Assembly: GCA_964017195.1 (NCBI GenBank)
Contig: OZ024890.1
Span: 67,235,376-67,299,375, forward strand
DNA from: Siderastrea radians
Taxonomy: Eukaryota; Cnidaria; Anthozoa; Scleractinia; Rhizangiidae
Reading direction: 5' to 3'
DNA: 64,000 nucleotides
The position numbers and the translations under genes are program-made. The first letter of the stretch is position 1; every line of letters starts with the position of its first letter. Shown here one piece after another: positions 15,556 to 58,330 of the stretch. A model generated the notes under the pieces. That model made no database searches and was not told the origin of the DNA. It was given only the letters and a program-made list of their open reading frames with translations.

Positions 15556-18500
15556 TCTTTTTTGTTACACAGGTACTTCCACTCAGTGTTCAGTTGTGAG
15601 ACGAAGAGCAGACTCGCCTGATTCCAGTACCACTACGTCTAAACAGGGCAAGTTTGTCGCTGCAGGTAACTTAAATAACATCCGTAGTAAAGGCAAGTTT
15701 TATTTATCCGTCAAACTAGTCAAAGACCTATACAGCCATTTATCATTTGATCTATATGTCTGTCAAGGTGTCTTCCTGTTAGCTTGACTGTATATTTGTC
15801 CGCATTTATTTACTTCTGGTTTGTACCGAAATTGCTAGTGGTCAAACTATATACGCACTGACAGGTTATCGGCTTTGAAAGCTTTGTATAGCCTCTTTAA
15901 TAATTTTCCCCATAATACCGGCTACCATCCTGCAAAACGTTTTATACTCAGTAGTGTTTTAATGTTACCGCAGGTACTTCCGCTCAACAACATCGCTCAC
16001 CTGTAAAGCGAAAGAGAGAGCTGTCGTTTTCTGGTACCATTGCTTCTAAACGAAGTAAACTTGCCACTGCAGGTAATAAATACGAAAAGAAAGGAAAGGT
16101 ATATTTAGAGACTTCTCCCTACGTTTGCTCAATCTCGTTCCCAGTATCCTCAGGCTTCTTGGTCAGCGGGTGCTCGCCAGGAGAGACTCTGAGGTACTGG
16201 AATTTTTACCGCAGAAATCCTACGGTTGCCGGTTGCCTTAGTTTTGTTACTGTGAACAGCCAATCAAAAGATTCATAATTTTTCCCATTATTCCAGAGTC
16301 TCTCTTGGCGATTACCCGCTGTCTGCCAGTAGGAAGGTTTTACTTTTGACTTTGATTGGTCAAACTTCTCAAGTCTTCTAAAAGGTTATTACTGTAAAAG
16401 CTCTACTGAGCCCTTCTGACAGTCCAGCCCCTAGAACGTGACCTGCTGCAATTTATACCAATGATACAACTTACTACTTTACAAATCATGCAAGAACTTT
16501 TCTCTATATTGCACAGGTACTTCTGCCAAAGATCAGCGCACTAAAAAAACTGAGTCATTGGTTTCTAGCACCAGTTCTTCTAAACTGAAAAAAAGAAAAG
16601 TTGCCGTTGCAGGTAATAAGTACAAAAAGGAAGGAAACTGTAATCAACGACACATCTGATGTCTGTCTGTCTGTCTGTCTGTCTGTTTCTGTCTGTTTCT
16701 GTCTGTCTGTTTGTCTGTCCGTCTGTCTGTCCGTTTGTCTGTCTGTCTGTCTGTCTGTTTCTGTCTGTTTGTCTGTCTGTCTGTCCGTCTGTCTGTCTGT
16801 CTGTCTGCCTGTCTGTGTATACAAGTTGTCTATTCATCTGTATTGGTCAAACCTCCAGTTTGTAGGGAAATTGACATCAACTGTTATTAACTCTGTTAGC
16901 GAAATTTACAACTATTGAAAGCCAGGTGATTGCGGAGTACAGAATATTCGCTATTGTCTGTGAGAGCCTGTAATCTTTAGAACGCGAGAACCCATTCGAG
17001 ATATATTCTACTGATCGACTTGAACTTTAAAACCGGACAATTTCATATGAAAGGTAGTTGCAATCACGGAATTTCTGTGAACTTACCTTATGATAGGAAA
17101 TTAATGACCCAGAAATGAACTGGAATTCAAAACTTCACGTTAATTTTGTTTTCGGAGTATTAATATCCACGACGCTTATTTTAATATTAAAATATCTCTA
17201 TTACGTGTTTTTACCTCAAATTCTAATTCCTGTCGTTTATTAATTAGCTGTAGCCAATTCAGGCGATCATCAAATAACATCTTTCTTTCTTTAGTATATT
17301 TCAGTCTTATGATACATTGCTTTTGATACATTCGTCCTCAGAAGTGTTTAGGGTATTTCGGTATAAATGCCCTTGGAATTAATGATCAACGTTCTCTTCC
17401 CCGACAAAATACAAGGCCTCCCCACTCGCGCTAATTATCCTTCGTTTGGAAATTGTACTTTTTTAAATGTTGGATTTAATTTTATTCAATTAACACTAAG
17501 ATGTGCACCAGGACCTGGTGAAGGTAAAATATTTTGAAAGAAAAATGACCAATCACAACGTTAATTAGGACCAAAACAAGGCTACGTTTTTTCAAAAACT
17601 AACCAATAACGGCATGAGTGATGTTCACAATTAGGAATTTGAAGGAATGGTTTCAGTTGTGCGTGCTCAGTTTCTTATTGTTCTTCTCGTTAGCATTTAG
17701 TGATTCTCATTACCATACAAGAAACGGGTTATACGAAGTCACTCTAATAAGCTGATTGGGAACTTCTGTTTATTATTAAACGATTACAGCGGGCAATGTC
17801 GATATCTTTTGTTTTCAATTAGCTTTGTGATTGGTCACTTTTCTTCCAATTAGGCTGGTTCGAGTAATCGCACAGTAAATGACACTGCTTGGGAGCGGGC
17901 TGTTAAATCGTTAAAGATGGTAAAGTTTTGCTTATAATCGCAACCAATTACTATAACGAGAAACAGATCTGTTTGTACATGTTCTTAAATCATTTTATGT
18001 CTATAGGTGCATCAGCTGAGTCAAGCTTAAAAAGACCTTCAACTACTACTGAGATCCAGCAGGAATCGAAAAGACCAAGGACGATGACCGAGACAAATTC
18101 AGGTGATGTTGTATTCCTGTAACTTTTCAGGTTATAATTGATAATTGATTTCTAAAAGTTCACAATAGAAACCAAACAATTATTATACGGTTCGTTTTCG
18201 ACATTATCGGGAACAAATGGCACTTGTTTCTTTTCGTAAGACATGTGCTGAACGTCCTTAACAGAGAGGCTTGAAGGGGTGGTATTTCAGTTTCTGAATA
18301 AAAAGACACAAAAACATCATTACTCCTATGCAGGCTTTCCCCTTTTGCCCTTCATTACCAGGAAATATATTTTCATTAGCGTACATACAGTTTTTCATTG
18401 AAATGAATGTGAAATCATTGTAGCAAATAACAAAATAAACCTAAAATTCTAAAAAAGTGGATTAAAATGTGGCAAAACCTCTCGTTTACTAAAAAACGTT

Positions 18501-21212
18501 TCCTTAAAGGGTTCCTAAAACATTTAACGGACTAGATGGGTAGCGCATTCCATAGCTGACACGTACACTGTACTGACTATAGAAGTTTTGCTACCTTCAG
18601 TTTTCCGCTTGAACCGAGGGCACACAAAATTTTTCCCCCTTGAATTTTAAACTTTCCATTAAGTGATGTGGAACTCCACCCTGAGTTCGTTCAAATAAGG
18701 CCAACGAGCTTTTGGCAGCTTTCGCTTCCTCATAGAAAGGTATCCAGCCAAGCTCGTTAAACAGCGGTATAGAAGGTGACCACGAACCTGCGTCCGGTAT
18801 AATCCTTGCACTCTCTTCTGCAAATGGGGGAGTCTTTGAAGATTCTCTTACTACAACGTTCAAGCCATGCACGCAGTTACCGAGGAGCCCTAATAGACCT
18901 TGTCACGGTTTTCGACGCACCGTGACTGGTAGGCAAGCAGGCATGAAATTTCCGGGTTTGTATGAGAATCCGATGTCGAATAGTTTTGATAAAACGTCCG
19001 TTCAATGGAAAACTAAAGCTACAAGGCAAAGGATTTTTCCGACAAATTTTGTGGGCTGTATCCAAACTAGAACGTGCCCGATCGCTTGTTTTAGATTTTA
19101 TATACATTTCTCTCTAATTTTTCCCGAGAAATTTCAGTCGGCGGGGAAAACTTTTTCTACAGAAATAGAAAAATTAAAGAAAAGAAAATTATAGAAAATT
19201 ATAGAGTCATTAGAAGAAGTGATTCTATAGCACAGGTGAGGCCTTCAAAATTTGTTACAAGAATCTTTTCCCTAATTGCTTTAGTTTGCAATTAATTCAC
19301 ATTGTCTTTTTCAGAACGGACGTTTTACAGAAATTATTTGACATCGAATTCTCAGACAAACACTGTAATTTCATCCCTGCTTGCCTACCCGTCAAGATGG
19401 CGTCCAAAACCGTTACAAGGTCTATTGAATACAGATCATTCAAAGTAACTATGAATGACTACAAACTACTGTTTTAGCTGGCCTTCACACACAGTCGCAA
19501 ACACCGACAAAGACTTTACAGAGTCGAGGGCATACAGCATTTGTGATATCAACTTTCATTAAAGGAAATGAGTTATTCATTTTTCCGAATTTTCAGGCTC
19601 TAAATATTCCTTATTCATTTACTGTTTTAACTCGTTATTTATCATTCATTATTCCCCTTCAACCACCGAAAGGATTTGAACAATGCGGCTAAGAATCTCA
19701 TTCAGAAAGCAAAGTACAAACGAGGAAAATCAACCAGGCAACAATCACAAGATTTAGCAAGTAAAGGTTTGTCAGGATCGAAAAATTCGCTCTGGAGATT
19801 TATGAAAAACAAAGGTTGGAAACCTTTAAGCGACAAAAGAAGCCATTGCTGACTGAAAAACAACAAGGAGATCGGCTTAGATTTGCAAAAAAAAAAACAA
19901 AAACAAAAAACAGAAGTCCGAAGTATTTGTTTAAACTACCGAATCCCAAAAATGACTTCGTCTGGGGATCCCAAGAAAGAGAAATTCCTCCTGCCTATCA
20001 AGTCAAGCAAAGTTCCAAATGAACAAGGTGTGGTGCTGCGTCGGCGGGGACGTGAAACAAATGGCCCTTCGTCTGACGAAGGGCTAACGCTCGAAACGTC
20101 AGCTTTCAATCTCTTTACGGTGGCCAATTTACGTTATCAACTCAGTTGATAAATCCAAAATTTAAAGTTCCAAATGGATTATCTGGGGCGGAATGACTGG
20201 CCGTGGACTGACTGGGCGTCACTTTATTCCACCATGACAAACCCTAACAGCTGATAAATTACACAACGTATTAGAGAAGGAAGTAAAGCGTCTTCTTAGA
20301 CGTAAATTGACAAACGAATTAAGCAACTATTAAGAGAAAACTTTTCAGCTCTAGCCCTTAATATGACTTTGTTCAAGACGGACCACCACCTCATGCAGCA
20401 AAGGCAAAGCAATCATGGTGTTTAAAGAATTTGCCTAATTTCTTGCAAAAAGAGAATGGCCCGCAAAGTCTCCGGACATAAATCCCATTGAGAATCTTTG
20501 GAGTATAATAGATGAGGAAGCATATATAAAGATCCTATCTCGAAGACAATGAAAGAACTGAAAAGGAGGCTTAAAGAAGCTTGGAAAAATGTGCCTCTTA
20601 CAACACCACAAGAATTATCTCACTCGCTGCCTCAACGGCTAAAAAATGTGATAAAAAACAAGGGAGGCCACGCAGACTACTGAAATTGTGAAAAAATAAT
20701 AGTGTAATTATCGGCTGCGAGACAGCACAAATATATATACTTATAATTATATATTTATATATAATTTTTCTACCCTCCCCAGTCTTACTTTTCGTTTTGC
20801 TCTCCTTTTTTTGAAGTTAACTTGTAAGGTTTCTATGGTATGCCGCTTGCAATTAAACAAACCGTATAGTGATTTTGTTTCTCGCTGTATTGAATGTTTT
20901 ATTTTTCTTTTTACCATTGCAGTCAAGGCGGGCAAAGTTTCAGATAAAGACCTACAGTTGCTATCTGGAAAACTCGTCGGGGATAAATGGAAGAAACTGG
21001 GGCGTCGCCTGGAGGTCGATGAAGCAAAGATAAGTGATTATAATAAACAACATGAGCAACTGGACGAAAAGGCGTATCACATGTTGAGGGACTGGAAGGA
21101 AAGAAAAGGATCTGGCGCTACTTATGAAGTTTTGTACGACGCTTTGTGTGATGAAGAGAGAGTGGCCTGTAGAAATTTAGCGGAAGAAATTTGTTGTGTT
21201 CAGTCTTCATAG
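9205..21212 (+). CDS. ROC-COR GTPase with C-terminal Death domain (ROCO family), 5' part not identified
   Basis: Ten exons join without a stop: 9205-9576, 10550-10630, 11891-13328, 13882-14131, 15013-15046, 15573-15665, 15974-16072, 16517-16612, 18007-18102 and 20923-21212, giving 948 visible residues. All have AG/GT borders and matching phases. The ROC GTPase has a P-loop ([10 protein letters not shown]), a switch-II DFAGQ and a base-binding THAD. A COR dimerisation region follows to about 13328, then a Cys-rich tail, four Ser/Thr/Lys-rich linker exons and a Death domain. ROC-COR-Death order is known from DAPK1, but no kinase is seen here. Likely a cytoplasmic or nuclear signalling switch that recruits Death-domain partners. 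The exon at 9205 starts in mid-protein (phase 1), so an upstream start exon exists. Additional exons between 18102 and 20923 are possible. The domain calls are firm; the join to the last exon is inferred from phase and order. Confidence 0.75.
9754..10278. mobile_element. Diverged piggyBac-like MITE copy in ROC-COR intron
   Basis: Begins after TTAA (9750-9753) with CTCTATTAAGACCGGGC and is similar along its length to the elements at 39461-40040 and 52939-53519, including GGCCATCTTGGATCCGCCAT and TGACGTCATATGACGTCA. The right terminal inverted repeat is missing: the end runs into AATTAATGAATTAATTC. Confidence 0.6.
11453..11609. repeat. 157-bp palindromic repeat in a ROC-COR intron
   Basis: The left arm (CAACTGAGTTGGTAAGGTAA...) and right arm (...TTACCTTATCAATCCAATTGA) are inverted copies of one sequence. 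The same sequence occurs singly at 20022-20163 and, weakly, in the 3' flank near 22139-22196. The head-to-head arrangement suggests two retroposed ends or a foldback element. Confidence 0.55.
11891..13328 (+). CDS. ROC-COR gene, main exon: ROC C-terminal half and COR domain
   Basis: Acceptor TTTTTTTAATAG at 11890. After an acidic lead ([15 protein letters not shown]) it holds [20 protein letters not shown] (G3 region), LLVFDLTNE, and [13 protein letters not shown] (G4 region), then the COR domain with [27 protein letters not shown] and [11 protein letters not shown] mediates dimerisation in ROCO proteins. The donor at 13328/13329 (GAG|GTAGGT) removes the in-frame TAG at 13330-13332 and joins in phase 2 to 13882. 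Confidence 0.85.
13882..14131 (+). CDS. ROC-COR gene, Cys/His-rich exon
   Basis: Acceptor ATATGTAG. Joined to the COR exon it reads [20 protein letters not shown], a natural helix, then [27 protein letters not shown] and [11 protein letters not shown], a cluster of about a dozen Cys and His that looks like a metal-binding knuckle. It ends CAG|GTCAG at 14131/14132 in phase 0 and is followed by the 34-bp exon 15013-15046 ([11 protein letters not shown]), which returns the frame to phase 1. Confidence 0.65.
15514..15554. repeat. (AAT)n microsatellite
   Basis: About 13 AAT units, 18 bases before the acceptor of the linker exon at 15573. Length changes here could affect splicing of that exon. Confidence 0.9.
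15573..18102 (+). CDS. Four symmetric phase-1 linker exons of the ROC-COR gene
   Basis: Exons 15573-15665 (93 bp), 15974-16072 (99 bp), 16517-16612 (96 bp) and 18007-18102 (96 bp) each begin after AG with GTACTTC or GTGCATC, so each peptide starts G-T/A-S. All are phase 1 at both ends and Ser/Thr/Lys/Arg-rich; three of the four end GCAG or TCAG before GTAA or GTGA. Basic clusters occur: [19 protein letters not shown] and SKRPRTM, of which KKRKV equals the core of a classical nuclear localisation signal. They look like tandem duplicates of one cassette that can be skipped or repeated without shifting the frame. Confidence 0.65.
16161..16327. repeat. Foldback element of about 165 bp in ROC-COR intron
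   Basis: The left arm (CAGCGGGTGCTCGCCAGGAG at about 16164) and right arm (inverted, CAGCGGGTAATCGCCAAGAG) pair over roughly 35-40 bases. No coding capacity. Confidence 0.5.
16660..16816. repeat. (TCTG)n / (CAGA)n microsatellite
   Basis: About 157 bp of TCTG with a few variant units. The long RQTDRQTD and CLSVCLSV frames on both strands come only from this repeat. It starts about 47 bp after the linker exon that ends at 16612. Confidence 0.95.
18597..18872 (-). mobile_element. LINE ORF2 C-terminal fragment
   Basis: The minus-strand frame includes [20 protein letters not shown] followed by [15 protein letters not shown]. This resembles the conserved 'LxWLPFxExxKxxKxxxxxKxxxGxxPxYL' segment near the C-terminus of reverse transcriptases of cnidarian non-LTR elements. 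The rest of the LINE is absent. Lies in the intron before the Death exon. Confidence 0.5.
18892..19426. mobile_element. 535-bp foldback MITE
   Basis: The ends AATAGACCTTGTCACGGTTTT and (inverted) AATAGACCTTGTAACGGTTTT open inverted arms of about 112 bp (18892-19003 and 19314-19426) that are roughly 80 percent alike by eye. No ORF with family resemblance. Target duplication not resolved. Confidence 0.6.
19680..20685 (+). pseudogene. Tc1/mariner-type transposase pseudogene
   Basis: The N-terminal helix-turn-helix region ([20 protein letters not shown]) is followed by [19 protein letters not shown], then, after an interrupting insertion, [10 protein letters not shown], the catalytic-type [14 protein letters not shown] and [19 protein letters not shown]. 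The last two hold the second and third catalytic acidic positions. Frameshifts separate the parts. It lies in the intron before the Death exon, in the same direction as the gene. Confidence 0.75.
20022..20163. mobile_element. 142-bp retroposed fragment with 13-bp target duplication
   Basis: AAAGTTCCAAATG occurs on both sides (20009-20021 and 20164-20176), splitting the Tc1 transposase at a point where removing the insert restores its similarity. The insert contains GACGAAGGGCTAACGCTCGA and ends GTTGATAAATCCAAAATTT. A 13-bp direct repeat and no inverted ends point to retroposition. Confidence 0.65.
20923..21212 (+). CDS. Death-domain terminal exon, copy 1 (of the ROC-COR gene)
   Basis: Acceptor TTTTTACCATTGCAG at 20922; the exon enters in phase 1 (completing a Val codon) and stops with TAG. 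It encodes about 96 residues: [53 protein letters not shown] and [17 protein letters not shown]. The spacing W-LGRRL, I, MLxxW, ATxxxLxxAL is that of six-helix Death domains, which assemble signalling complexes by homotypic contact. It differs from copies 2 and 3 by only a few bases over 290 bp (one clear change is DYNKQ against AYNKQ). The 3' flank has an AATAAA at 22191. Confidence 0.8.
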
Positions 21213-32760: not shown

Positions 32761-33921
32761 GTTCCATGGCTTCCCCCAGTAAAATAAAAGTAGTTCTCCT
32801 CGCATCTGAGTGGGGATCAAAGCGTGGTGGACTGTCTACTTTCAACAGAGAGTTAGCAATAGAATTAGCGAAACATCCCGAGGTACAAGTGTCTGTTTTT
32901 CTTCCACGTTGTGACCATGAAGAACAGAATGCAGCTCGGAGCAAGAACGTCACTCTCGTTCAAGCAACAAGAAGGCCTGGATTTGATGATGAAACCCAAT
33001 GGCTTAGCTTTCCGCCAAACGACCTCCAAATAGACTTCGTAATTGGGCACGGGGTGGTACTTGGTCGTCATGCGCAGTTTATAAGAGAAAGTCGCCAGTG
33101 CAAGTGGATTCAGTTCGTGCATACCAACCCAGAGGAGCTGGGGATGTTCAAGGATTACCCAGCTGCCCTCTCCAAGGGAGAAAAGAAGCATCGAGATGAA
33201 GTGGATCTCTGTGTCATGGCCGATTTTGTCGTGGCCGTGGGGCCAAAGCTGGCAGAAGCCTATCAGTATTATCTTCGCTTTTGCGAGAAAGACCAAAAGG
33301 TATTTGTCTTTACGCCAGGCATTTTTAGTGAGCTTTTAAACGTACCACAGAGCCAGCGAGACGGGAACAAGTGTCAAGTTTTAGCGTTTGGCCGTGGCGA
33401 TCCTGAAGATTTCTCTTTAAAGGGATTTGACATCGCAGCTAAAGCTGTAGCAAGGCTCGATGATGCTCATCTGATCTTTGTTGGCGCAAAGCAACAGGAA
33501 GAAGTAGCAAGCCGATTGAAAGAATGCAACATTCCTCCAAGTCGACTAAGAGTAAGGACTTTTATAGAACTGAGGGAACGTTTAAAACAGCAGTTTTCTG
33601 AGGTGGATCTTGCCATAATGCCATCAAGAACCGAGGGCTTCGGTCTCGTTGCTCTGGAAGCGATGTCAGCAGGTTTGCCCGTTCTTGTAAGTGCCAACTC
33701 GGGATTTGGAGAAGCCATGAAAGAGGTTGACTTCGGTTCGCCATGTGTGATCGACTCTGAAGATCCTGAGGTTTGGTCTGCGGAGATAAAGAAGTTATGG
33801 AAGAAAAAAAGGGATCAACGACTGCGAGAATCAAAAGCCGTCCGCAACAGCTATGCGACGAAGTACACCTGGAAAGAGCAATGCAACGATCTTGTGGAGA
33901 AGATGAGGTGCATCCTTAACG
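32761..33921 (+). CDS. Glycosyltransferase exon, gene 1
   Basis: One 1161-bp exon (387 codons) carries the whole enzyme domain. Acceptor GTGTTTTTTCAG at 32760, donor AACG|GTATGA at 33921/33922, phase 1 on both sides, so it can be moved between genes as a unit. Both lobes look complete and there are no internal stops. Confidence 0.85.
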
Positions 33922-36900
33922 GTATGACCCGTTCTTGTAGGCTAACCGTTTTCTGAGTAATTTTAGTTATTTGTCTCTGGTCCTTTTGTTGCCATTTACC
34001 TGATCGCAGGTAGCCAACCGTCGCGTAGAATACCCGGTCACATCCGGGAATTTAACTGGCTAGAAACGCATTTAAGCCATGTGGTGGTCTTAAAAATATG
34101 GCGGAATTATAGGATTTGAACAACTTTCAGCGAAGACTCTGAATTTAGCCTGAGCCCGTGAGGGGAGGTGTGCGCGAAGGAAAATTCAAAAAACTTATTT
34201 CAAAGTCGTGAAAAATTTTTCACGAATCGGACCCGCCATCTTTTGTTTTTCAAAACTAGTTTCCAGTACTGCACGGCTGTTTCGTAGTGTTTACTTCATG
34301 TATTCTTCATATAGTCCTGGCATACGGTGCACGCGACTGAAATTGAAATTGACCAATCAGAGCTCAGTACGCGGGGCAAACTGAGTTTTCCTACGTCATA
34401 AGGAGAAAGGACCCCGGGAACGAGGTTGTCGCCTGTTCAGTCGAGCATCGTGTTTGTGTTCGTTTACCAGCAATGTCACACCAGTGATTCTGGTTCGATT
34501 TACATTTATACGTATGAATGCAGGCAAACAAGTGCTTATCTCAATGCAGTTTTAGTTTGTGAAAGTCAGTTGTCCCATTTTCTACGTTTAGTCATTAAAG
34601 GAATTTCGTAAATAAGCGATCGTAAGCTTAAAAAATTGCAGTTCATTGCGTAGTCTTTTAAGATTTTTTTCGTTAAAGTTTTTTGAGCAATTCTCATTTC
34701 CCAAGTGGTTTACATTTTATCCCAAAATTAGAAAGTGTGACTATTTTAGACTGGCTCGGTGTTGTTTTCTCAATCCAGTTTAGTATTCGTCACCGCACAT
34801 TGGGTTGTTTTGACTGACTGCTAATTTAATTATCCAACAATCTGAAGAGACAGTCGCTCTGTCGTCAAGTTTATAGTGAAAAGCTCTATGTTTTTTCAGT
34901 TGTGGAATATTTTATCAGCTCCCTGTATTGTTATATTTTCAGCTTCCTCATTTGAAGCGAATGCCATTTCTGTCCTAATTTAGAGGCTAAAATAAATTAG
35001 AATCGCCGATTCAGTGAGTGAGTTCAGTGTAGCATGGTTTTGTAGCGTGTCTGTAGATCAAAATGAAAAAGTTATTCAAGCAACTATAGGTGAAACAGTT
35101 CTCGGTCTAAAGCTATTTTGTCCAAAACGAGACTCTAAAAGCTTCCGAAAAATAGTTTAGGGTGTGTTCTTTAAAACACCCGAGTAATACTTCGCGGGCG
35201 AAAAAGTTGTGCCATTTTCCCTCTATAATTGTGTTTGGAAGCTTCAGAAAACATTTTTCGGGCGACATTTCCCAGTAAACGGCCTGATGCCTGAGTGATA
35301 TTGTTTATGTTATTAAAGTTGTTTAATGAATGACAGAACTAAACAGCCAGTGGGCATGCGAATCAGTGAAAAATGCTTACCAGTATTTAGATTGCAAAGT
35401 CTCAGTGTCGAGTCGCTCCTCGGCTGTCGGGAGGAACTGACGTGAGTTCATTCGTTTTTATAACAGCCGGAGCAACTGTATTTTCACGAGTACTCTTCTT
35501 GACCTTAATAAGCTTTCCAAAGAATGCTGCAAAAAGCGCTGTCGGTGAACGTCTTGCTGAAGTCTTATTTTTGAAGGAAAATAAGTCGACTTTACTGTTT
35601 CCTCAGCGGTCCGCATTGTGTTTTTGCGTTTATGTTTTCCCTTGTTGTTTTTCATCTTTAAATATGAGCAAGCAACCTGGTGAGAAAAATGGACGAGAAA
35701 AATCACCTTTCAACGAATTTAAATTAAGCAGAAATTCCAACAGCGTCACTGAGACACAAATCAAAATTGTCCCGGAGTACCTAATTTCTTAAACGACAAG
35801 AAACTGTGTAGAAATAGAAATTTAAGCAGTTCGCGTTGTGTTTCCAATTCAGCTTAATAATTTCTTTCATCGTCACGTCGATCACAAAATATTACAAGCG
35901 GTGGGTTCGATCAGTCAGGAAGGCTTTCCACTCCGAAGTATCAAAACAAGACAAAATAAAACACAGTAAAATGAAAGAGAAGCATTTAATAAAAACTGTC
36001 ACACATTCATGGCGAGTCAGTACGAAAATCAAGAAGCAATCTAAGCAAGAACCGAGCAAACTACCGAGAAAGAAGGAAGGGCGACATTTTTTGGCTATAC
36101 CACACAAAGTTGACTCTGGTCTACCTGCACTCGTTGTAACTCTCTGTTCCAAAAGTTCCAAATGCTCTGATACAAATCGGATGCTATCTAAAAGAAGTTG
36201 AATCGCTTCCCAGTTGTTTGAGTGTTGTTTTTACCATTCCGTCCACAACCCTAAACTGAGAACAACTGCGTTTTGTGTCTTGCCTTTAACAAACTAGGAT
36301 GGTGAATTCTGACGTTCCTCACCGCAGTAATCCTGTTTCTGAGCTGCATAGAGATAACCTGTTCAACTGGTTAAAATTCTGTCTTCAGTTCGATCAAACA
36401 AGCACATCGTTGTGCGAAAGGGATTACAATCTTGCTCCGTTTCAACTCCTGCAGCTAATATGGTGAAATCGTACAGCCTCAATCCACTTTGAACGATGAT
36501 TATAACAATGTTTCAAGAAAAATCAAACACGTACGGCATTTTCAGAGCCAAAAATTAGTAGATTTTTTCCCAAAACTTGTGCCACTTCGTTCCGTTTGGA
36601 TCGCCGAAGCAGTTTCATTTAGATTCATTCAGCTTTGGAGAGGAAGGCTGCACACTTAGTGAGCTTTTGGCGCCTTTTTCTTTCGGTCATGTGACCAATT
36701 CTTGTCCCTTTTTATCTCTTACTGGTCTTTTTCTCTCTGTCTTGATTTTATAACAGCTATGGTTATTCTACTCGGACTTGCTGGATATCGAATAATTATA
36801 ACCAGCTCGCCGCTATGCACCTCGTTGGTTATCTATCATTGCAAAAACCTAACACTGGATGTAACAGCTAATGACGGACGTTAAAATAGTGACTTTGACT

Positions 36901-39900
36901 GGAGTGAACGTCTGGTGTTGTAAGTTTCGCCGGACGTTAACTTTTATGCAACTCGCTCCCGTTGCGCTGCATGCTTTCCTGCCCTCTGGCTCGAGTTGGA
37001 AAAACTGGACAATTAGCAAGTCACATCATGTAATCCATATCGCAATGTACCCTAGCCTGAATTTCAGCCGTCTCCTCTGGTCGCTCACTCCCGAGAGAGA
37101 CGTCTGAATCAATGAGCCGCTAATGCCGTCCAGTGACGTCACGGCGAATCAATGTTAATTTATGCGAATTATTTCTGTTCTCGCGAAAAATTCAGCTTTT
37201 GCCCGCCCTCGAGTCGATGATAGACGCACGCCTGTCGCTCGATGGCAAGGGTCAAGTACCTTTTGTTTTGCTTCTACTGGAAAGTGAAGTGCTGCGGGTA
37301 AAGCGCATGCAGTGGTTTAACGGCCAAAAGTCAATTATTCACAAATATCTTGGTCGTTGGTGAAACGCGTGACGGACGTCACTGACGCATCCGTGACACA
37401 GACCTGACGAGTAGGTTTTTCCCCCAAATCTTCGTCATGAATGAAAGAACGGAGAACGAAGTACAACAATTATTTTTAGGTAATATTTGACTCAGAGGAG
37501 ACCTGCTTTGCTTAAAAAAGCGTTTACCCAGATAAGAACTGCTTTACCTCAAAAAACGAATCGCGTTCAATCCTCGCTTCATCGTGCAAAACGCTTTCTT
37601 CACCTGCTTTCAAACTCTTCGCCGCCTTCGCAAAAACGTGGCTTCCTACACGAAACAGGATTTCTCCGCTATAAGTTTTCCAAATCCCACTTTACCGACG
37701 GTCGAGTGTTCTTTAAGGTTCCAACGTTAAAATGGTGTGTTTTCTTTCTGAATCGATTAATGACTCAATGAAATAATACAACAAAATAGAAGAATCCTCG
37801 ATAAAACATCGAATTTTAATAATACTGCACAGTTCCAGGAATTGCTAAAAATATTCTGAGAAACATATCGGCTGCAATTCAAGATAATTTACCTTCACTT
37901 GCTTTCAAACTCTTCGCCGCCTTCACAAAAACGTGGCTTTCTACACAAAACAGGATTTCTACATACCACTTGTCATTCATGAGAGCAACCAAGGGAAAAA
38001 TAACAATGATACAGTGTGCTTCAAATTGTGTACACGATTGGAGAGTTCACTCGCAACAAGTGCAATCTGAAAAATTTACCTGCCATAGCTGGTCGGAAGA
38101 TTAACGAAAACATTTTCCCTCGACAGGAAGTGAAAGAGAGCGTTTACCTGTTCGGGGTATAACTTAGTTAACCCCAAGATTCGATATTGCTTCTTTGAAA
38201 GCCTTCGCACAAAGTGGATTCCCCGTAACCGCCACTTTGTAAACATTCCTCGCACTTTGTCAGTCAGCCAATCAACACCGCTGTCTGGTTTTTGGACAGT
38301 GACGTCACTGGACGGCATTAGCGGCTCGTTGATTCAGACGTCTCTCTCGGGAGTGAGCGACCAGAGGAGACGGCTGAAATTCAGGCTAAATGTACCCAAT
38401 GTCCCCAATGTTACGATGAAGGATGATGACGTAGGAAAACTCGGTTTTCACTGCCGATAGCACCGCGGGCGCAAGCTTCGTATGCCAGGACGCCGCAGAA
38501 AAAGAGCGACATAACACTGACCCCCTCCCAGACGGGATGTTTTTTGTTGACTGCACTGGACTGGGAATTCTACGCGACGGCTTTGGGTATGTCAAATACT
38601 GGTCTAAAACATCTTGAGTAATGCGCAAGTATGTTTTAGATCAGATCTGCGACCATTTCTATCGTACTTTGCAAGCAAGATAAAGACCCTTCCGAAATTA
38701 TATTGTTAACGAAGGTAAAAGGTAATAATAATTCGATAATAATTTATCACTTATAGTGTGCATAATCGATGAATATAATCATATAATCAAGGAAAAAGCC
38801 TCTCTTTTTGGTTTCCAAGAACAGCTATCATTGTAATGAACTGCTCATCAATTAACGTTATTATATTTTATTTACTCTTGTGTTAGTAGATTTTTTTAAG
38901 GAGCTGATAAGAAAATCTAGGAGAGGAGAATTTCACAAGTTTGGAACATTTAGGTCGCCTTTGAAATAGTGAAACTCTTAACTAAAGGAAGCATTATATA
39001 TTTATTTCAAAAGGTTCAACAAAGCCAGAGGCTAAGAAGAGGTCATCCGGCTCCATTTCTGAGGAAGCTGAAGATGGTAATATCATTAAATTAATAATTT
39101 AAAGATAAAATCAAAATAATCTACGTCACGGATAGCAGGTATAAGTTGTGCATTCATTACTGCGTGACCGTGGTACTCTATTCTAATTTCGTTTAAAATA
39201 ACTGTTAGAACAGGGCGCTTAAAAAAGACGCCATCGCTGAAGTAAGGGATTCTGATGTTGAAGTTTCTTTTCCCATTTGTGTGCAAATATGACACTTCAA
39301 ATGAAGGGGAAAAAAAACTTGTCGTTTAAACAGAGACGCAGCGTTGGTGCATGTAGAGCTTAGTGCGTTGGATTTTGAACGAGAGTTCCATGGGGAGCCA
39401 AGAACTGTCGGGTCGGTGATTCTAAGTTGGTCTGTGCTTCATGTCGTGTTGTTTCCTTAACCCTATTCAGACCGGGGTTTTTTGGGTCTTCTGGGACCTG
39501 GGGGGGGGGAGCCGGATTCGGCCCCCACCTCTTAACTCCGAGAATATTAAAGCCATGACAACGAAACTTGGAGGGCAGATAATACCTTTAAAAAGGTCTC
39601 CTTTGAGGTCCCCAAAATCAGCTGATGACGTCATATGACGTAGCAACTACGTCAGGTTCTAAAATGGCGGCCATCTTGGATCCGCCATCTTGGATTTCTT
39701 GTTTTTTTCAGAACCTTTCAAATTTACCAAAATTGACCAAAAAGTATCCGAAATCAATAAAAGAACACAAAAATGATATAAAAATGTAAAATTTACTTTG
39801 GAAAAGTTACAATTTTGCAATGTAAAGGTTAAAAATTAAAACTCTGAAAAATCAGCCTGTCAAAAAGTGGTTGACATGGTAACGTCAAACGTGATGGGCA

Positions 39901-41968
39901 AGCATTTGCTGAGCCAAATTGTTCCCAGATAAATTTTAGGAAAAGTCACTACGTTTGGTGGGTTTAGCTTGCTTTTGAAAAAAGTTATAAACGTCCAAAG
40001 TCAGTGCGGGCACAATCGGCCTGCCCCGGTCTGAATAGGGTTAAGAAAGAAACTCTATTCGACCTCATTTGCTGCACTTCACGCAGGCACAAAAAAAAGG
40101 CCGGCGTACCAGTAAATCTTTAGGGAAACCTTACAAAGTTTTGAGGGTAGGGGTGGGGTGGGAGATTGTGACTAGCATCCCATTCAGAAGAGAGTAACAA
40201 ATATACTCTTAGTCGCTTCATGCTTCCGAAGCCGTGTTCACTAGGTTTGTGCAGTTTTTGCCATGTCAGTAAAACCGAAAACGATAGGAGAATTATATTT
40301 GGTTAAGTCTATGTCAATAATTGTAGCTGGACCAGTGTCCAGTTACACCCCCCCCTCCCCCCTCAATGTTATGCGACTGCAAGGAATCATAGTAGTTGTA
40401 TGCAATATAAGTAGACCAACATTAGTTTACCCCTGCATCGTATTGAAGACGTTGTTTTACTATTCAAATAGTTGGATTTTTTCCTTTCGTTATTACCTTA
40501 AATACCTCATGATTCATTGGCAGGATAGAAAATAACATCATAATGTCATTTTGCAAACAGCTTCCATGAATCCCTGCAGGCAGGTTACATAGACGGAAAT
40601 GGGAATAATTGAATATCATTTTAATTCATATCATCTATTTTTAAAAAGGTGCGCCACCACCAAAAAGAACGATACCCTCAGATGAAAGTATTCAAGATCC
40701 CAAGACATCCGTGCCCACGACAGTGTATGCTGAAGGTCAGATATCCCATTTGATGTGCCTGTGATGAAACCCTGAAGTATTAATTCACGATTCCAATGGG
40801 ATATTTTGAGCAGTTATTATAAATATACTACGGTTTGCTTCTAAGAATTTGGCAGAAGGGGATTTTTTTTTATTTCTGCCCGGCGATAAGTAATCACAGC
40901 GTGCTGTTAGATGTGTACACTGCTGTATGTCAGAAAGCTCGTGGCCAATGGTGTCATTAGATATAGCTCACAAATAGACTTTTAACAATTCAGGAAGTAT
41001 TCCTGTATCATAAGGCAACACTTGGCGATGGCCGTTGCATCTGGAGCGTCTTAGCCGAGTATTGAGAGACTTAAAGAGACTACAATCTATTAATCCAAGC
41101 AAGTCTGAGATTATTTCTTTTACTGTAACCATGAAAACAATGTCTCAGTGTCCCAATCTTTTTTTGTTCTAGTAAAGGTTTTGTCGGACCATTAGCTCTA
41201 CAGACCACACCCTTACATCGTGAGCTAGCGGCGGCTACAAATGCCTCTCTCACATTTATATATATTTTTCTGCACTACAATGTGGACAGTGCTCCGAAAT
41301 TGAACCTGATTTAAATTCCTCGGTTTTTGTTTCTCTAATCGCAAAGTTTCGAGACAGTTTCGTTAAATAAATGCTTAGACAAGACGGCTACAAATAAGTC
41401 TTGCTGTATTTCTCTTAACAGGTTCTTCTGCGCTGGAGCACGGTTCAACCTCGACAACAGGAAGTTCTCGTGCCATGAAAGGTATTATTATTGATATTCT
41501 GTGTATATCCATCATCGGCCAGAAAGTAAGCTGGTGAAGAAAAGGAATTCGTGATTCGTGGAGGTTTAAAACAATGCCAGCCCTCTCGCGCGCGATAAAG
41601 CTTCGAGACTACAGAAATATTTATATTTGCTCTACCTTTCTTATGGTAAACTTGTAAGATATATTTTTTCTATTGCAGTAAAGGCGGGCAAAGTTTCAGA
41701 TAAAGACCTACAGTTGCTATCTGGAAAACTCGTCGGGGATAAATGGAAGAAACTGGGGCGTCGCCTTGAGGTCGATGAAGCAAAGATAAGTGCATATAAT
41801 AAACAACATGAGCAACTGGACGAAAAGGCGTATCACATGTTGAGGGACTGGAAGGAAAGAAAAGGATCTGGCGCTACTTATGAAGTTTTGTACGATGCTT
41901 TGTGTGATGAAGAGAGAGTGGCCTGTAGAAATTTAGCGGAAGAAATTTGTTGTGTTCAGTCTTCATAG
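32766..41968 (+). CDS. Glycosyltransferase (GT-B, family-4-type) fused to a Death domain, gene 1
   Basis: Proposed exons 32766-33921, 39014-39076, 40649-40735, 41422-41481 and 41679-41968 have AG/GT borders and phase 1 at every internal join, giving 551 residues with no stop. The start is MASPSKIKVVLLASEWGSKR in a good context (TTCCATGG) six bases inside an exon. The enzyme domain (about 385 residues) has the N-terminal glycine loop GGLSTFNRELAIELAKH, GRGDPEDFSLKGFDIAAKA in the C-lobe, and EGFGLVALEAMSAGLPVLVS, which holds the EX7E motif of retaining family-4 enzymes. Three short linkers and a Death domain follow. No signal peptide or membrane segment, so a cytosolic enzyme; donor and acceptor are unknown. 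If the donor at 33921 is not used, the frame stops at 33956, giving an enzyme-only form. Coral genomes are known to join 'glycosyl transferase group 1' domains to NLR-type proteins; a direct join to Death is my inference. Confidence 0.65.
34316..38489. mobile_element. 4.17-kb DNA element present only in unit 1
   Basis: Begins CCTGGCATACGG and ends CGTATGCCAGG. The inverted ends share CCTGGCATACG and, further in, GAGTTTTCCTACGTCAT. The matching place in unit 2 (51966/51967) is an empty site reading ATATAGTAACGCC, one A longer than the joined flanks here. No transposase-like ORF was recognised, so it is probably non-autonomous. A second element (37053-38388) is nested near its right end. Confidence 0.7.
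37053..38388. mobile_element. 1.34-kb MULE-type non-autonomous element with 89-bp TIRs and 9-bp TSD
   Basis: Terminal inverted repeats 37053-37141 and 38300-38388 start TAGCCTGAATTTCAGCCGTC and differ at about one base. They are flanked by the 9-bp direct repeat AATGTACCC (37044-37052 and 38389-38397). Long TIRs plus a 9-bp target duplication are typical of Mutator-like elements. Inside, about 60 bp (TGCTTTCAAACTCTTCGCCG...) is repeated directly near 37606 and 37900. No transposase is encoded. Confidence 0.85.
39014..41481 (+). CDS. Three symmetric linker exons of glycosyltransferase-Death gene 1
   Basis: 39014-39076 (63 bp, GSTKPEAKKRSSGSISEE...), 40649-40735 (87 bp, GAPPPKRTIPSDESIQ...) and 41422-41481 (60 bp, GSSALEHGSTSTTGSSRAMK) are phase 1 at both ends, begin G-S/A, and are Ser/Thr/Pro/Lys-rich like the ROC-COR linkers. 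Low-complexity peptide; likely a flexible, phosphorylatable spacer before the Death domain. Confidence 0.55.
39461..40040. mobile_element. piggyBac-like MITE (unit 1)
   Basis: Starts CCCTATTCAGACCGGGG and ends CCCCGGTCTGAATAGGG, flanked by TTAA on both sides (39457-39460, 40041-40044). TTAA duplication with CCC ends is the signature of the piggyBac superfamily. 580 bp, non-coding; contains GGCGGCCATCTTGG and ATCCGCCATCTTGG. Confidence 0.8.
41679..41968 (+). CDS. Death-domain terminal exon, copy 2 (glycosyltransferase-Death gene 1)
   Basis: Acceptor TTTTTTCTATTGCAG at 41678. Encodes the same Death domain as copy 1 with AYNKQ in place of DYNKQ; identical in protein to copy 3. Stops with TAG at 41966-41968 and is followed by the shared 3' flank. 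Confidence 0.85.
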
Positions 41969-50411: not shown

Positions 50412-51572
50412 GTTCCATGGCTTCCCCCAGTAAAATAAAAGTAGTTCTCCTCGCATCTGAGTGGGGATCAAAGCGTGGTGGACTGTCTACTTTCAACAGA
50501 GAGTTAGCAATAGAATTGGCTAAACATCCCGAGGTACAAGTGTCTGTTTTTCTTCCACGTTGTGACCATGAAGAACAGAATGCAGCTCGGAGCAAGAACG
50601 TCACTCTCGTTCAAGCAACAAGAAGGCCTGGATTTGATGATGAAACCCAATGGCTTAGCTTTCCGCCAAACGACCTCCAAATAGACTTCGTAATTGGGCA
50701 CGGGGTGGTACTTGGTCGTCATGCGCAGTTTATAAGAGAAAGTCGCCAGTGCAAGTGGATTCAGTTCGTGCATACCGACCCAGAGGAACTGGGAATGTAC
50801 AAGGATTACTCAGATGCCCTTTCCAAGGGAGAAAAGAAGCATCGAGATGAAGTGGATCTCTGTGTCATGGCCGATTTTGTCGTGGCCGTGGGGCCAAAGC
50901 TGGCAGAAGCCTATCAGTATTATCTTCGCTTTTGCGAGAAAGACCAAAAGGTATTTGTCTTTACGCCAGGCATTTTTAGTGAGCTTTTAAACGTACCACA
51001 GAGCCAGCAAGACAGGAACAAGTGTCGAGTTTTAGCGTTTGGCCGTGGCGATCCTGAAGATTTCTCTTTAAAGGGATTTGACATCGCAGCTAAAGCTGTA
51101 GCAAGGCTCGATGATGCTCATCTGATCTTTGTTGGTGCAAAGCAACAGGAGGACGTAGCAAGCCGATTGAAAGAATGCAACATTCCTCCAAGTCGACTAA
51201 GAGTAAGGACTTTTATAGAACTGAGGGAACGTTTAAAACAGCAGTTTTCTGAGGTGGATCTTGCCATAATGCCATCAAGAACCGAGGGCTTCGGTCTCGT
51301 TGCTCTGGAAGCGATGTCAGCAGGTTTGCCCGTTCTTGTAAGTGCCAACTCGGGATTTGGAGAAGCCATGAAAGAGGTTGACTTCGGTTCGCCATGTGTG
51401 ATCGACTCTGAAGATCCTGAGGTTTGGTCTGCGGAGATAAAGAAGTTATGGAAGAAAAAAAGGGATCAACGACTGCGAGAATCAAAAGCCGTCCGCAACA
51501 GCTATGCGACGAAGTACACCTGGAAAGAGCAATGCAACGATCTTGTGGAGAAGATGAGGTGCATCCTTAACG
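50412..51572 (+). CDS. Glycosyltransferase exon, gene 2
   Basis: 1161 bp, same borders as gene 1: acceptor TGTTTTTTCAG at 50411, donor AACG|GTATGA at 51572/51573, phase 1 both sides. Intact. Read-through past the donor would stop at 51607. Confidence 0.85.
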
Positions 51573-54500
51573 GTATGACCCGTTCTTGTAGGCTAACCGT
51601 TTTCTGAGTAATTTTAGTTATTTGTCTCTGGTCCTTTTGTTGCCATTTACCTGATCGCAGGTAGCCAACCGTCGCGTAGAATACCCGGTCACATCCGGGA
51701 ATTTAACTGGCTAGAAACGCATTTAAGCCATGTGGTGGTCTTAAAAATATGGCGAAATTATAGGATTTGAACAACTTTCAGCGAAGACTCTGAATTTAGC
51801 CTGAGCCCGTGAGGGGAGGTGTGCGCGAAGGAAAATTCAAAAAACTTATTTCAAAGTCGTGAAAAATTTTTCACGAATCGGACCCGCCATCTTTTGTTTT
51901 TCAAAACTAGTTTCCAGTACTGCACGGATGTTTCGTAGTGTTTACTTCATGTATTCTTCATATAGTAACGCCGCAGAAAAAGAGCGACATAACACTGACC
52001 CCCTCCCAGATGGGATGTTTTTTGTTGACTGCACTGGACTGGGAATTCTACGCGACGGCTTTGGGTATGTCAAATACTGGTCTAAAACATCTTGAGTAAT
52101 GCGCAAGTATGTTTTAGATCAGATCTGCGACCATTTCTATCGTACTTTGCAAGCAAGATAAAGACCCTTCCGAAATTATATTGTTAACGAAGGTGAAAGG
52201 TAATAATAATTCGATAATAATTTATCACTTATTGTGTGCATAATCGATGAATATAATCATATAATCAAGGAAAAAGCCTCTCTTTTTGGTTTCCAAGAAC
52301 AGCTATCATTGTAATGAACTGCTCATCAATTAACGTTATTATATTTTATTTACTCTTGTGTTAGTAGATTTTTTTAAGGAGCTGATAAGAAAATCTAGGA
52401 GAGGAGAATTTCACAAGTTTGGAACATTTAGGTCGCCTTTGAAATAGTGAAACTCTTAACTAAAGGAAGCATTATATATTTATTTCAAAAGGTTCAACAA
52501 AGCCAGAGGCTAAGAAGAGGTCATCCGGCTCCATTTCTGAGGAAGCTGAAGATGGTAATATCATTAAATTAATAATTTAAAGATAAAATCAAAATAATCT
52601 ACGTCACGGATAGCAGGTATAAGTTGTGCATTCATTACTGCGTGACCGTGGTACTCTATTCTAATTTCGTTTAAAATAACTGTTAGAACAGGGCGCTTAA
52701 AAAAGACGCCATCGCTGAAGTAAGGGATTCTGATGTTGAAGTTTCTTTTCCCATTTGTGTGCAAATATGACACTTCAAATGAAGGGGAAAAAAAACTTGT
52801 CGTTTAAACAGAGACGCAGCGTTGGTGCATGTAGAGCTTAGTGCGTTGGATTTTGAACGAGAGTTCCATGGGGAGCCAAGAACTGTCGGGTCGGTGATTC
52901 TAAGTTGGTCTGTGCTTCATGTCGTGTTGTTTCCTTAACCCTATTCAGACCGGGGTTTTTTGGGTCTTCTGGGACCTGGGGGGGGGGGAGCCGGATTCGG
53001 CCCCCACCTCTTAACTCCGAGAATATTAAAGCCATGACAACGAAACTTGGAGGGCAGATAATACCTTTAAAAAGGTCTCCTTTGAGGTCCCCAAAATCAG
53101 CTGATGACGTCATATGACGTAGCAACTACGTCAGGTTCTAAAATGGCGGCCATCTTGGATCCGCCATCTTGGATTTCTTGTTTTTTTCAGAACCTTTCAA
53201 ATTTACCAAAATTGACCAAAAAGTATCCGAAATCAATAAAAGAACACAAAAATGATATAAAAATGTAAAATTTACTTTGGAAAAGTTACAATTTTGCAAT
53301 GTAAAGGTTAAAAATTAAAACTCTGAAAAATCAGCCTGTCAAAAAGTGGTTGACATGGTAACGTCAAACGTGATGGGCAAGCATTTGCTGAGCCAAATTG
53401 TTCCCAGATAAATTTTAGGAAAAGTCACTACGTTTGGTGGGTTTAGCTTGCTTTTGAAAAAAGTTATAAACGTCCAAAGTCAGTGCGGGCACAATCGGCC
53501 TGCCCCGGTCTGAATAGGGTTAAGAAAGAAACTCTATTCGACCTCATTTGCTGCACTTCACGCAGGCACAAAAAAAAGGCCGGCGTACCAGTAAATCTTT
53601 AGGGAAACCTTACAAAGTTTTGAGGGTAGGGGTGGGGTGGGAGATTGTGACTAGCATCCCATTCAGAAGAGAGTAACAAATATACTCTTAGTCGCTTCAT
53701 GCTTCCGAAGCCGTGTTCACTAGGTTTGTGCAGTTTTTGCCATGTCAGTAAAACCGAAAACGATAGGAGAATTATATTTGGTTAAGTCTATGTCAATAAT
53801 TGTAGCTGGACCAGTGTCCAGTTACACCCCCCCTCCCCCCTCAATGTTATGCGACTGCAAGGAATCATAGTAGTTGTATGCAATATAAGTAGACCAACAT
53901 TAGTTTACCCCTGCATCGTATTGAAGACGTTGTTTTACTATTCAAATAGTTGGATTTTTTCCTATCGTTATTACCTTAAATACCTCATGATTCATTGGCA
54001 GGATAGAAAATAACATCATAATGTCATTTTGCAAACAGCTTCCATGAATCCCTGCAGGCAGGTTACATAGACGGAAATGGGAATAATTGAATATCATTTT
54101 AATTCATATCATCTATTTTTAAAAAGGTGCACCACCACCAAAAAGAACGATACCCTCAGATGAAAGTATTCAAGATCCCAAGACATCCGTGCCCACGACA
54201 GTGTATGCTGAAGGTCAGATATCCCATTTGATGTGCCTGTGATGAAACCCTGAAGTATTAATTCACGGTTCCAATGGGATATTTTGAGCAGTTATTATAA
54301 ATATACTACGGTTTGCTTCTAAGAATTTGGCAGAAGGGGATTTTTTTTTATTTCTGCCCGGCGATAAGTAATCACAGCGTGCTGTTAGATGTGTACACTG
54401 CTGTATGTCAGAAAGCTCGTGGCCAATGGTAACATTAGATATAGCTCACAAATAGACTTTTAACAATTCAGGAAGTATTCCTGTATCATAAGGCAACACT

Positions 54501-55446
54501 TGGCGATGGCCGTTGCATCTGGAGCGTCTTAGCCGAGTATTGAGAGACTTAAAGAGACTACAATCTATTAATCCAAGCAAGTCTGAGATTATTTCTTTTA
54601 CTGTAACCATGAAAACAATGTCTCAGTGTCCCAATCTTTTTTTGTTCTAGTAAAGGTTTTGTCGGACCATTAGCTCTACAGACCACACCCTTACATCGTG
54701 AGCTAGCGGCGGCTACAAATGCCTCTCTCACATTTATATATATTTTTCTGCACTACAATGTGGACAGTGCTCCGAAATTGAACCTGATTTAAATTCCTCG
54801 GTTTTTGTTTCTCTAATCGCAAAGTTTCGAGACAGTTTCGTTAAATAAATGCTTAGACAAGACGGCTACAAATAAGTCTTGCTGTATTTCTCTTAACAGG
54901 TTCTTCTGCGCTGGAGCACGGTTCAACCTCGACAACAGGAAGTTCTCGTGCCATGAAAGGTATTATTATTGATATTCTGTGTATATCCATCATCGGCCAG
55001 AAAGTAAGCTGGTGAAGAAAAGGAATTCGTGATTCGTGGAGGTTTAAAACAATGCCAGCCCTCTCGCGCGCGATAAAGCTTCGAGACTACAGAAATATTT
55101 ATATTTGCTCTACCTTTCTTATGGTAAACTTGTAAGATATATTTTTTCTATTGCAGTAAAGGCGGGCAAAGTTTCAGATAAAGACCTACAGTTGCTATCT
55201 GGAAAACTCGTCGGGGATAAATGGAAGAAACTGGGGCGTCGCCTTGAGGTCGATGAAGCAAAGATAAGTGCATATAATAAACAACATGAGCAACTGGACG
55301 AAAAGGCGTATCACATGTTGAGGGACTGGAAGGAAAGAAAAGGATCTGGCGCTACTTATGAAGTTTTGTACGATGCTTTGTGTGATGAAGAGAGAGTGGC
55401 CTGTAGAAATTTAGCGGAAGAAATTTGTTGTGTTCAGTCTTCATAG
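50417..55446 (+). CDS. Glycosyltransferase (GT-B, family-4-type) fused to a Death domain, gene 2
   Basis: Proposed exons 50417-51572, 52492-52554, 54127-54213, 54900-54959 and 55157-55446 repeat the structure of gene 1 exactly, with the same lengths, phases and splice borders, and give 551 residues. The EX7E segment (EGFGLVALE) and the glycine loop are unchanged. About eight residues differ from gene 1 in the enzyme domain, in clusters (HTDPEELGMYKDYSDALSKG against HTNPEELGMFKDYPAALSKG; SQQDRNKCRV against SQRDGNKCQV; EDVAS against EEVAS). The Death domain is identical. Both copies being open argues that they are, or were very recently, functional. Gene 2 lacks the 4.17-kb intronic element, so its first coding intron is short. 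Confidence 0.65.
52492..54959 (+). CDS. Three symmetric linker exons of glycosyltransferase-Death gene 2
   Basis: 52492-52554, 54127-54213 and 54900-54959, the same lengths (63, 87 and 60 bp) and phases as in gene 1; the second has GAPPPKRTIP with one synonymous change at its start. Confidence 0.55.
52939..53519. mobile_element. piggyBac-like MITE (unit 2)
   Basis: Copy of 39461-40040 with the same TTAA flanks (52935-52938, 53520-53523), carried along by the tandem duplication. Confidence 0.8.
55157..55446 (+). CDS. Death-domain terminal exon, copy 3 (glycosyltransferase-Death gene 2)
   Basis: Acceptor TTTTTTCTATTGCAG at 55156; protein identical to copy 2. Phase 1 entry, TAG stop. Confidence 0.85.
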
Positions 55447-58069: not shown

Positions 58070-58330
58070 GACCTACAGTTGCTATCTGGAAAACTCGTCC
58101 GCGATAAATGGAAGAAACTGGGGCGTCGCCTGGAGGTCGATGAAGCAAAGATAAGTGCATATCATAAACAGCATGAAGAATTGGATGAAAAGGCGTATCA
58201 CATGTTGACGTACTGGAAGGAGAAAGAAGGTTCTGGTGCTACTTATGAAGCTTTGTACAATGCTTTGTGTGATGCAGAGAGAGTGGCCTGTAAAAATTTA
58301 GCGGAACAAATTTGTTGTCATCAATCTTAA
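58070..58330 (+). pseudogene. Fourth, diverged Death-domain exon, lacking its 5' end and splice site
   Basis: Open from the junction: [20 protein letters not shown], then [40 protein letters not shown] and a TAA stop. About a dozen residues differ from copies 1-3, so it is an older paralogue. The first few codons and the intron acceptor present in the others are missing, so it cannot be spliced in the normal way. The 3' flank (58331-58988 and 59679 to about 59900) is a diverged relative of block A. Confidence 0.75.

Follow-up and report, generated by a model that had tools for sequence, protein, structure and literature searches.

GT4 glycosyltransferases of animals and bacteria have been placed among conflict systems as predicted effectors. 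The parts of Kaur et al. 2021 consulted here (PMC8195603) assign GT4 to the effector position in bacterial AP-GTPase systems and report adaptor domains that are repeated on the NTPase and on its effectors, GT4-TRADD-N proteins in cnidarians, cephalochordates and hemichordates, and a massive expansion of GT4 in coral, with >500 paralogues in Acropora digitifera. On the sources consulted, coral GT4 conflict enzymes, adaptor fusions, glycosyltransferase-NACHT proteins (PMC4083563, PMC5013795, PMC12314368, PMC10236652) and ROCO proteins are already known, and what activates the strongly expanded coral enzymes and what they modify are left unexplained in that literature. Here we analyse a stretch of 64,000 nucleotides from the coral Siderastrea radians (contig OZ024890.1, positions 67,235,376 to 67,299,375 of the forward strand; hereafter the window, whose own numbering is used throughout). 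It holds a gene, GT4-Death gene A, in which a predicted glycosyltransferase is joined to a Death domain, and upstream of it on the same strand a predicted Roc-COR (ROCO) GTPase gene with a near-identical Death exon. Nothing else in the locus is as informative as the ROCO gene, which was missed by a preliminary description of this DNA that had dealt with gene A. The exon chains, the domains, a tandem duplication and the common terminal Death exon can all be seen in the sequence itself (Table 1).

A terminal Death exon common to a ROCO and a GT4 gene

The five exons of gene A have AG/GT borders and phase-1 junctions, with the internal exons in phase 1 on both sides. Rebuilding and translating them confirmed the preliminary description, yielding 551 residues without a stop from the ATG at 32766 to a stop codon at 41966-41968. 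The first exon had been described as an intact GT-B exon with an EX7E motif; the motif falls at E290/E298, with H119, R210 and K219 likewise present, and in Pfam the exon matches GT4-conflict (PF20706; 298.2 bits against a cut-off of 26, E 1.1e-88, profile positions 2-385 of 385) and also Glycos_transf_1 (E 1.5e-20). The last exon proved to be the Death domain that had been proposed (PF00531; 55.5 bits against a cut-off of 22.6, E 6.5e-15). Its predicted structure consists of six helices (mean pLDDT 91.8), and a Foldseek search with this model gave TRADD, p84 and FADD as the closest folds, the TRADD death domain standing at the top with E 1.9e-3 and nothing reaching E 0.001 or better. The protein had also been called soluble, which is plausible on a rough test: its top hydrophobic 19-residue stretch (residues 292-310, Kyte-Doolittle 1.69) lies inside the enzyme core. 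The gene model, with predicted splicing, is well supported and points to a putative sugar-attaching enzyme, with predicted glycosyltransferase activity, joined to a cell-death adaptor module.

The upstream gene is predicted to encode a Roc-COR GTPase spliced to a Death exon. Roc and COR-A lie in tandem within one exon, both above their Pfam cut-offs (frame 11842-13332), while the P-loop exon by itself reaches 25.4 bits for Roc, just under the cut-off of 27. Ten exons from 9205 chain phase-compatibly into the Death exon at 20923, giving 941 residues without a stop when the first codon is completed with an assumed base from the missing preceding exon. A further candidate exon at 13626-13804 was dropped, since its phases misfit and 13328 joins 13882 directly in frame. 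No kinase was found in the exons of this gene, whose N-terminus is incomplete. The four linker exons between 15573 and 18102 carry basic runs that by eye resemble nuclear-localisation signals and are weaker in the GT4 linkers.

A search with the ROCO gene returned 181 matches, of which 120 were listed. Among those listed, the closest relative with a Death domain is P0122, a 903-residue ROCO-Death protein with the same Roc-COR-Death layout as predicted for the window gene. Its coding part must be intron-free because a contig of 2981 bases holds all 903 residues. By tblastn, P0122 matches the Death exon and three of the Roc-COR exons; local alignment adds a match to one basic linker. ROCO proteins with a Death end occur also in Stylophora (P0126), Acropora cervicornis (P0128) and Montipora (P0129), whereas the Death matches of Oculina P0127 are N-terminal instead.

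The Death domain of the ROCO gene (D1) is identical to those of the GT4 genes at 95/96 residues, and thus a matching adaptor stands on a predicted NTPase and on a predicted effector within one locus. At the DNA level, the exons D1 and D2 are 98.3% identical and the following 300 bases 93%, and the shared block begins about 15 bases ahead of the Death exon (20908/41664, blastn). The 300 intron bases before the exon are 58% alike, compared with 59.7% in one unrelated control pair, and no relation could be detected between the ROCO and the GT4 linkers. It follows that only the terminal exon and its downstream flank are common to both genes, and we therefore rejected the idea that one gene is simply a duplicate of the other.

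Table 1. Exons of the ROCO gene and of the two GT4-Death genes, and a truncated Death exon, in window coordinates
Feature	Position	Strand	Basis and remarks
ROCO gene, Roc exon (P-loop part)	9205..9552	+	First exon found, N-terminus incomplete; Roc E 1.7e-5, 25.4 bits; P0122 tblastn 69%
ROCO gene, short phase-1 exon	10550..10630	+	Phase and splice sites only; no tblastn homologue match
ROCO gene, Roc (second part) and COR exon	11891..13328	+	COR-A E 3.6e-14, Roc E 3.2e-8; P0122 tblastn 62%
ROCO gene, C-terminal COR-region exon	13882..14131	+	P0122 tblastn 62%; in-frame join to 13328
ROCO gene, short exon, phase 0 to phase 1	15013..15046	+	Phase chain
ROCO gene, phase-1 linker exon 1	15573..15665	+	Phase chain
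ROCO gene, phase-1 linker exon 2 (basic)	15974..16072	+	Phase chain; alignable to P0122 linker
ROCO gene, phase-1 linker exon 3 (basic)	16517..16612	+	Phase chain
ROCO gene, phase-1 linker exon 4 (basic)	18007..18102	+	Phase chain
ROCO gene, terminal Death exon (D1)	20923..21212	+	Pfam Death E 2.7e-14; 95/96 residues identical to D2 and D3
GT4-Death gene A, GT4-conflict exon	32761..33921	+	ATG at 32766; Pfam GT4-conflict E 1.1e-88
GT4-Death gene A, linker exon 1	39014..39076	+	Splice and phase check; Oculina alignment
GT4-Death gene A, linker exon 2	40649..40735	+	Splice and phase check; Oculina alignment
GT4-Death gene A, linker exon 3	41422..41481	+	Splice and phase check; Oculina alignment
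GT4-Death gene A, terminal Death exon (D2)	41679..41968	+	Pfam Death E 6.5e-15; six-helix model, pLDDT 91.8
GT4-Death gene B, GT4-conflict exon	50412..51572	+	ATG at 50417; 8/386 residues differ from gene A
GT4-Death gene B, linker exon 1	52492..52554	+	Splice site and frame kept as in gene A
GT4-Death gene B, linker exon 2	54127..54213	+	Splice site and frame kept as in gene A
GT4-Death gene B, linker exon 3	54900..54959	+	Splice site and frame kept as in gene A
GT4-Death gene B, terminal Death exon (D3)	55157..55446	+	96/96 residues identical to D2
Truncated fourth Death exon (D4)	58070..58330	+	85% over 86 residues; without splice acceptor of the shared type

Relatives of both genes in other genomes

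The spliced gene A protein gave 4580 matches, of which 120 were listed; GT4-conflict and Death occur together in two of these 120, P0009 and P0013, both from Oculina patagonica. At 551 and 552 residues they have the same GT4-linker-Death layout as gene A, and they align with its product from the first to the near-last residue, linkers included, at 60% and 58% identity respectively. This match over the whole length indicates that the direct glycosyltransferase-Death architecture, first put forward in the preliminary description, recurs in another coral by more than chance. The three linker exons, when concatenated, beat 2000/2000 shuffles against P0009 and 1999/2000 against P0013; taken singly against P0009 they were without significance (0.25, 0.12 and 0.46 of shuffles reached the score). 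In these two proteins, which cover the full length, Pfam found glycosyltransferase and Death families only, with neither NACHT nor NB-ARC. The GT-B fold was likewise recovered, MshA being the best match to a model of P0009.

These relatives also bear on whether the enzyme forms a gene of its own that stops in frame at 33956, the Death exon belonging only to another gene. The frame is indeed open up to 33956, and two entries of open-reading-frame type (P0004 and P0005) end with that read-through tail. The full-length Oculina proteins argue against such a gene, as do the linkers kept in copies A and B and three further relatives, P0017, P0031 and P0099 (on contigs of 1862, 2811 and 3495 bases), which exit the enzyme at the very codon interrupted by intron 1 in gene A. 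We rejected the stand-alone enzyme because of the Oculina proteins and these exits, and regard it as extremely unlikely. The tails of P0017, P0031 and P0099 after the enzyme differ from that of gene A (a TRADD-N match in P0031, at 20.3 bits, is below the cut-off of 23.7), and their exit point therefore supports the splice donor, not the Death end.

Between the Oculina paralogues P0009 and P0013 the enzyme is 91% alike, the linker 69% and the Death domain 50%, and the difference between enzyme and Death suggests that Death behaves as an exchangeable terminal exon. P0013 and another Oculina protein, P0045, have their first 406 residues in common (the enzyme and the linker start) and then differ, one ending in Death and the other in a long extension whose weak GDSL-lipase match stays under the cut-off; this divergence reflects either alternative ends or a mixed gene model. 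Two GT4-conflict domains per protein were seen in P0001, P0002 and P0003 (Montipora, Acropora), which are either true double enzymes or merged neighbouring genes. A scan of genome contigs for bacterial relatives gave 55 pattern matches, none of which was confirmed.

The ROCO search revealed a second link between the two families. Five of its 120 listed matches (of 181) carry GT4-conflict in the same polypeptide: P0123 (Oculina), P0136, P0169 (Stylophora), P0195 and P0196 (Branchiostoma belcheri). P0123, P0136, P0195 and P0196, all four scanned with Pfam, unite Roc, COR-A and GT4-conflict in one chain. P0169 has LRR, Roc, GT4-conflict and OTU domains; no COR-A match is listed for it, yet it aligns with the COR exon of the window at 26%. 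The fusions P0123 and P0136 end in a hydrophobic stretch that by eye resembles a C-terminal membrane anchor, unlike GT4-Death.

Growth of the array and a possible switch-effector pairing

Self-comparison revealed the window to be a tandem array and, going beyond the preliminary description, the GT4-Death gene to be one of two tandem copies. Gene B (50417-55446) is a second intact copy in which every splice site and frame is kept, and the eight residues that differ between A and B are all in the enzyme. The enzyme halves of the copies are 98.35% identical (37 mismatches in 2366 aligned columns) and the linker-Death halves 99.72% (8 mismatches in 3612). Eight changes are synonymous and eight non-synonymous, for a ratio of non-synonymous to synonymous rates (dN/dS) of 0.28 (NG86) or 0.44 (YN00); if, as a rough neutral model, 75% of changes are taken to be non-synonymous, the probability of seeing 8 or fewer among 16 is 0.027.

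The window contains four Death exons, at 20923, 41679, 55157 and, truncated, 58070, and the sequence preceding the last is part of the duplicated flank. The array would have grown by tandem duplication of the unit 20908-41663, which is bordered by the ROCO Death exon on one side and by the last of the GT4 linkers on the other. Such a duplication would, without any further step, leave GT4 followed by a copy of the ROCO Death exon, and we favour it because the order of matching blocks in the self-comparison fits. The truncated exon at 58070, probably older, may be a remnant of the former end of the effector gene.

Other features of the array concern its insertions. The segment 24555-27741 is without counterpart in the downstream unit, its flanks at 24554 and 27742 matching 45323 and 45337, and inside it Pfam recognised two Mutator-like transposase frames (25430-26239 and 26236-26889). 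Intron 1 of gene A holds a 4.2-kb insert (34316-38489) that gene B lacks. The insert has short inverted ends, contains an internal 90-base inverted repeat (37053-37142/38299-38388) and is probably a mobile element. Two open frames on the reverse strand, 1204-2286 (360 residues) and 62700-63998 (432 residues, leaving the window), had no Pfam match at E 0.1.

An array of this kind could be a functionless relic of an over-expanded family, as might be expected from the >500 GT4 paralogues of Acropora digitifera (PMC8195603, in the parts consulted), the transposase frames and the truncated Death exon. Two intact copies, a catalytic motif that has been kept and the same architecture in Oculina at 58-60% identity make this very unlikely.

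We propose instead, at about even confidence, that a ROCO GTPase switch and GT4 effectors are joined via homotypic Death contacts; the partnership, the sugar and the target are what we infer. The ROCO protein would be the switch: activation would let it assemble via its Death domain, and homotypic binding between Death domains would then draw in GT4-Death proteins. The GT-B enzyme, clustered in this way, would use a nucleotide sugar to glycosylate molecules of the invader or of the host, and GT4-Death may thereby act as an immune or cell-death effector. An effector role had already been suggested for gene A, and it would fit the published description of the family, in the parts consulted, as predicted conflict effectors (PMC8195603).

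Several points weigh against this pairing. The Death-matched ROCO/GT4 arrangement was seen in this window only, and among the matches listed, which are not proof of absence, the Oculina ROCO proteins P0123, P0125, P0127, P0131, P0137 and P0141 have contigs that differ in length from the 64.4-Mb contig of P0009 and P0013. A relation between the ROCO and GT4 linkers was not detectable (315/2000 shuffles reached the score), and duplication alone might account for the common Death exon. The comparison of copies A and B is weak evidence that suggests constraint but does not prove it. Expression, Death-Death binding, enzyme activity, target and outcome are all predicted from sequence.

The same points leave room for GT4-Death as a real effector beside an incidental ROCO neighbour, its Death domain plugging into general coral death-receptor or FADD-like assemblies and the common exon stemming only from segmental duplication. 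We consider this a substantial possibility, though one short of even. The solved Death domains nearest by sequence are those of TRADD, FADD and RIPK1, the window is a duplication-rich array, and related Death domains end other proteins too, namely a nucleoside-phosphorylase protein (P0241) and a COR-OTU protein (P0141). Set against this are the match of the Death domains at 95/96 residues and the single polypeptides of Oculina and amphioxus that combine Roc-COR with GT4. P0241 (340 residues) has a nucleoside-phosphorylase-like domain (PF01048) followed by a Death domain 53-54% identical to those of the window, and is possibly another enzyme using the same adaptor. It was the one match among 111 candidates in a search with the Death part alone, a result that says little on how common this Death domain is.

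Another possibility is that the enzyme glycosylates death-domain proteins themselves, brought to their assemblies by its own Death domain. It would activate or inactivate them in the way that NleB, from bacteria, acts on them from outside. In the alignment, R28 of the Death exon falls on the arginine that FADD and TRADD have in the WRRLAR/WRKVGR stretch; it is present in 9/10 aligned Death domains, and in the parts of the source consulted NleB modifies FADD Arg117, TRADD Arg235 and RIPK1 Arg603 (PMC7199390). From chain length, the aligned FADD arginine would be number 117. This arginine is also conserved in Death domains for binding reasons, NleB is not known to be a GT4 enzyme, and nothing indicates that the acceptor is a protein. 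We hold modification of death-domain proteins to be very unlikely.

Returning to the proposed switch-effector pairing, the locus offers a testable candidate for an activator-effector pair, in that the predicted GTPase and the neighbouring GT4 enzymes have one Death domain in common. A broader and more tentative idea, which we hold to be less likely than not, is that the terminal Death exon serves as interchangeable wiring of coral immune switches to enzymes, a recombining address code. Duplication, exon swapping or gene conversion would then give a ROCO protein and its GT4 effectors a private, near-identical Death domain, and effectors answering to other switches would carry diverged ones. If true, the code would be an animal counterpart of bacterial effector-associated domains.

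Comparison with known systems

The Death-matched ROCO/GT4 pair looks new. The literature searched held no text on such a pair or on a GT4-Death protein; figures and supplements lay outside the search, so a GT4-Death row may have been published. Nothing was found there under 'GT4-conflict', 'PF20706' or Roc-COR with coral and glycosyltransferase. The architecture of gene A is less of a surprise than the preliminary description held, in that its enzyme belongs to a named family, GT4-conflict, already described in coral as fused to TRADD-N and other conflict domains. With the metazoan GT4 conflict proteins, including GT4-TRADD-N-LRR, as given in the parts of the source consulted (PMC8195603), gene A has in common the GT4 family, a predicted effector role, the expansion in coral and fusion to a cell-death adaptor; it differs in that its adaptor is a classical C-terminal Death domain and in having no LRRs. 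The Acropora proteins that join NACHT or NB-ARC to glycosyl transferase group 1 (PMC4083563, PMC5013795, PMC12314368, in the parts consulted) fall in the same broad Pfam group and are likewise coral, immune-type and clustered by tandem duplication, whereas the GT4-Death protein is without NACHT or repeat domain. Among GT-B enzymes of family GT4, MshA is 19% identical, too far to infer a substrate.

The upstream gene has Roc-COR in common with ROCO proteins of the DAPK1 type, and DAPK1 likewise ends in a Death domain; unlike that type, the window gene has no kinase in the exons found, its N-terminus being incomplete. Closest in design are the bacterial AP-GTPase (ROCO) conflict systems with a GT4 effector, which in the parts of the source consulted bring a Roc-COR switch and a GT4 enzyme into one system (PMC8195603). 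In the window this system would be split over two genes that are joined, by inference, through their Death domains, and the locus may be an animal example of what is seen in bacteria, where the switch and its effectors each bear a copy of one adaptor.

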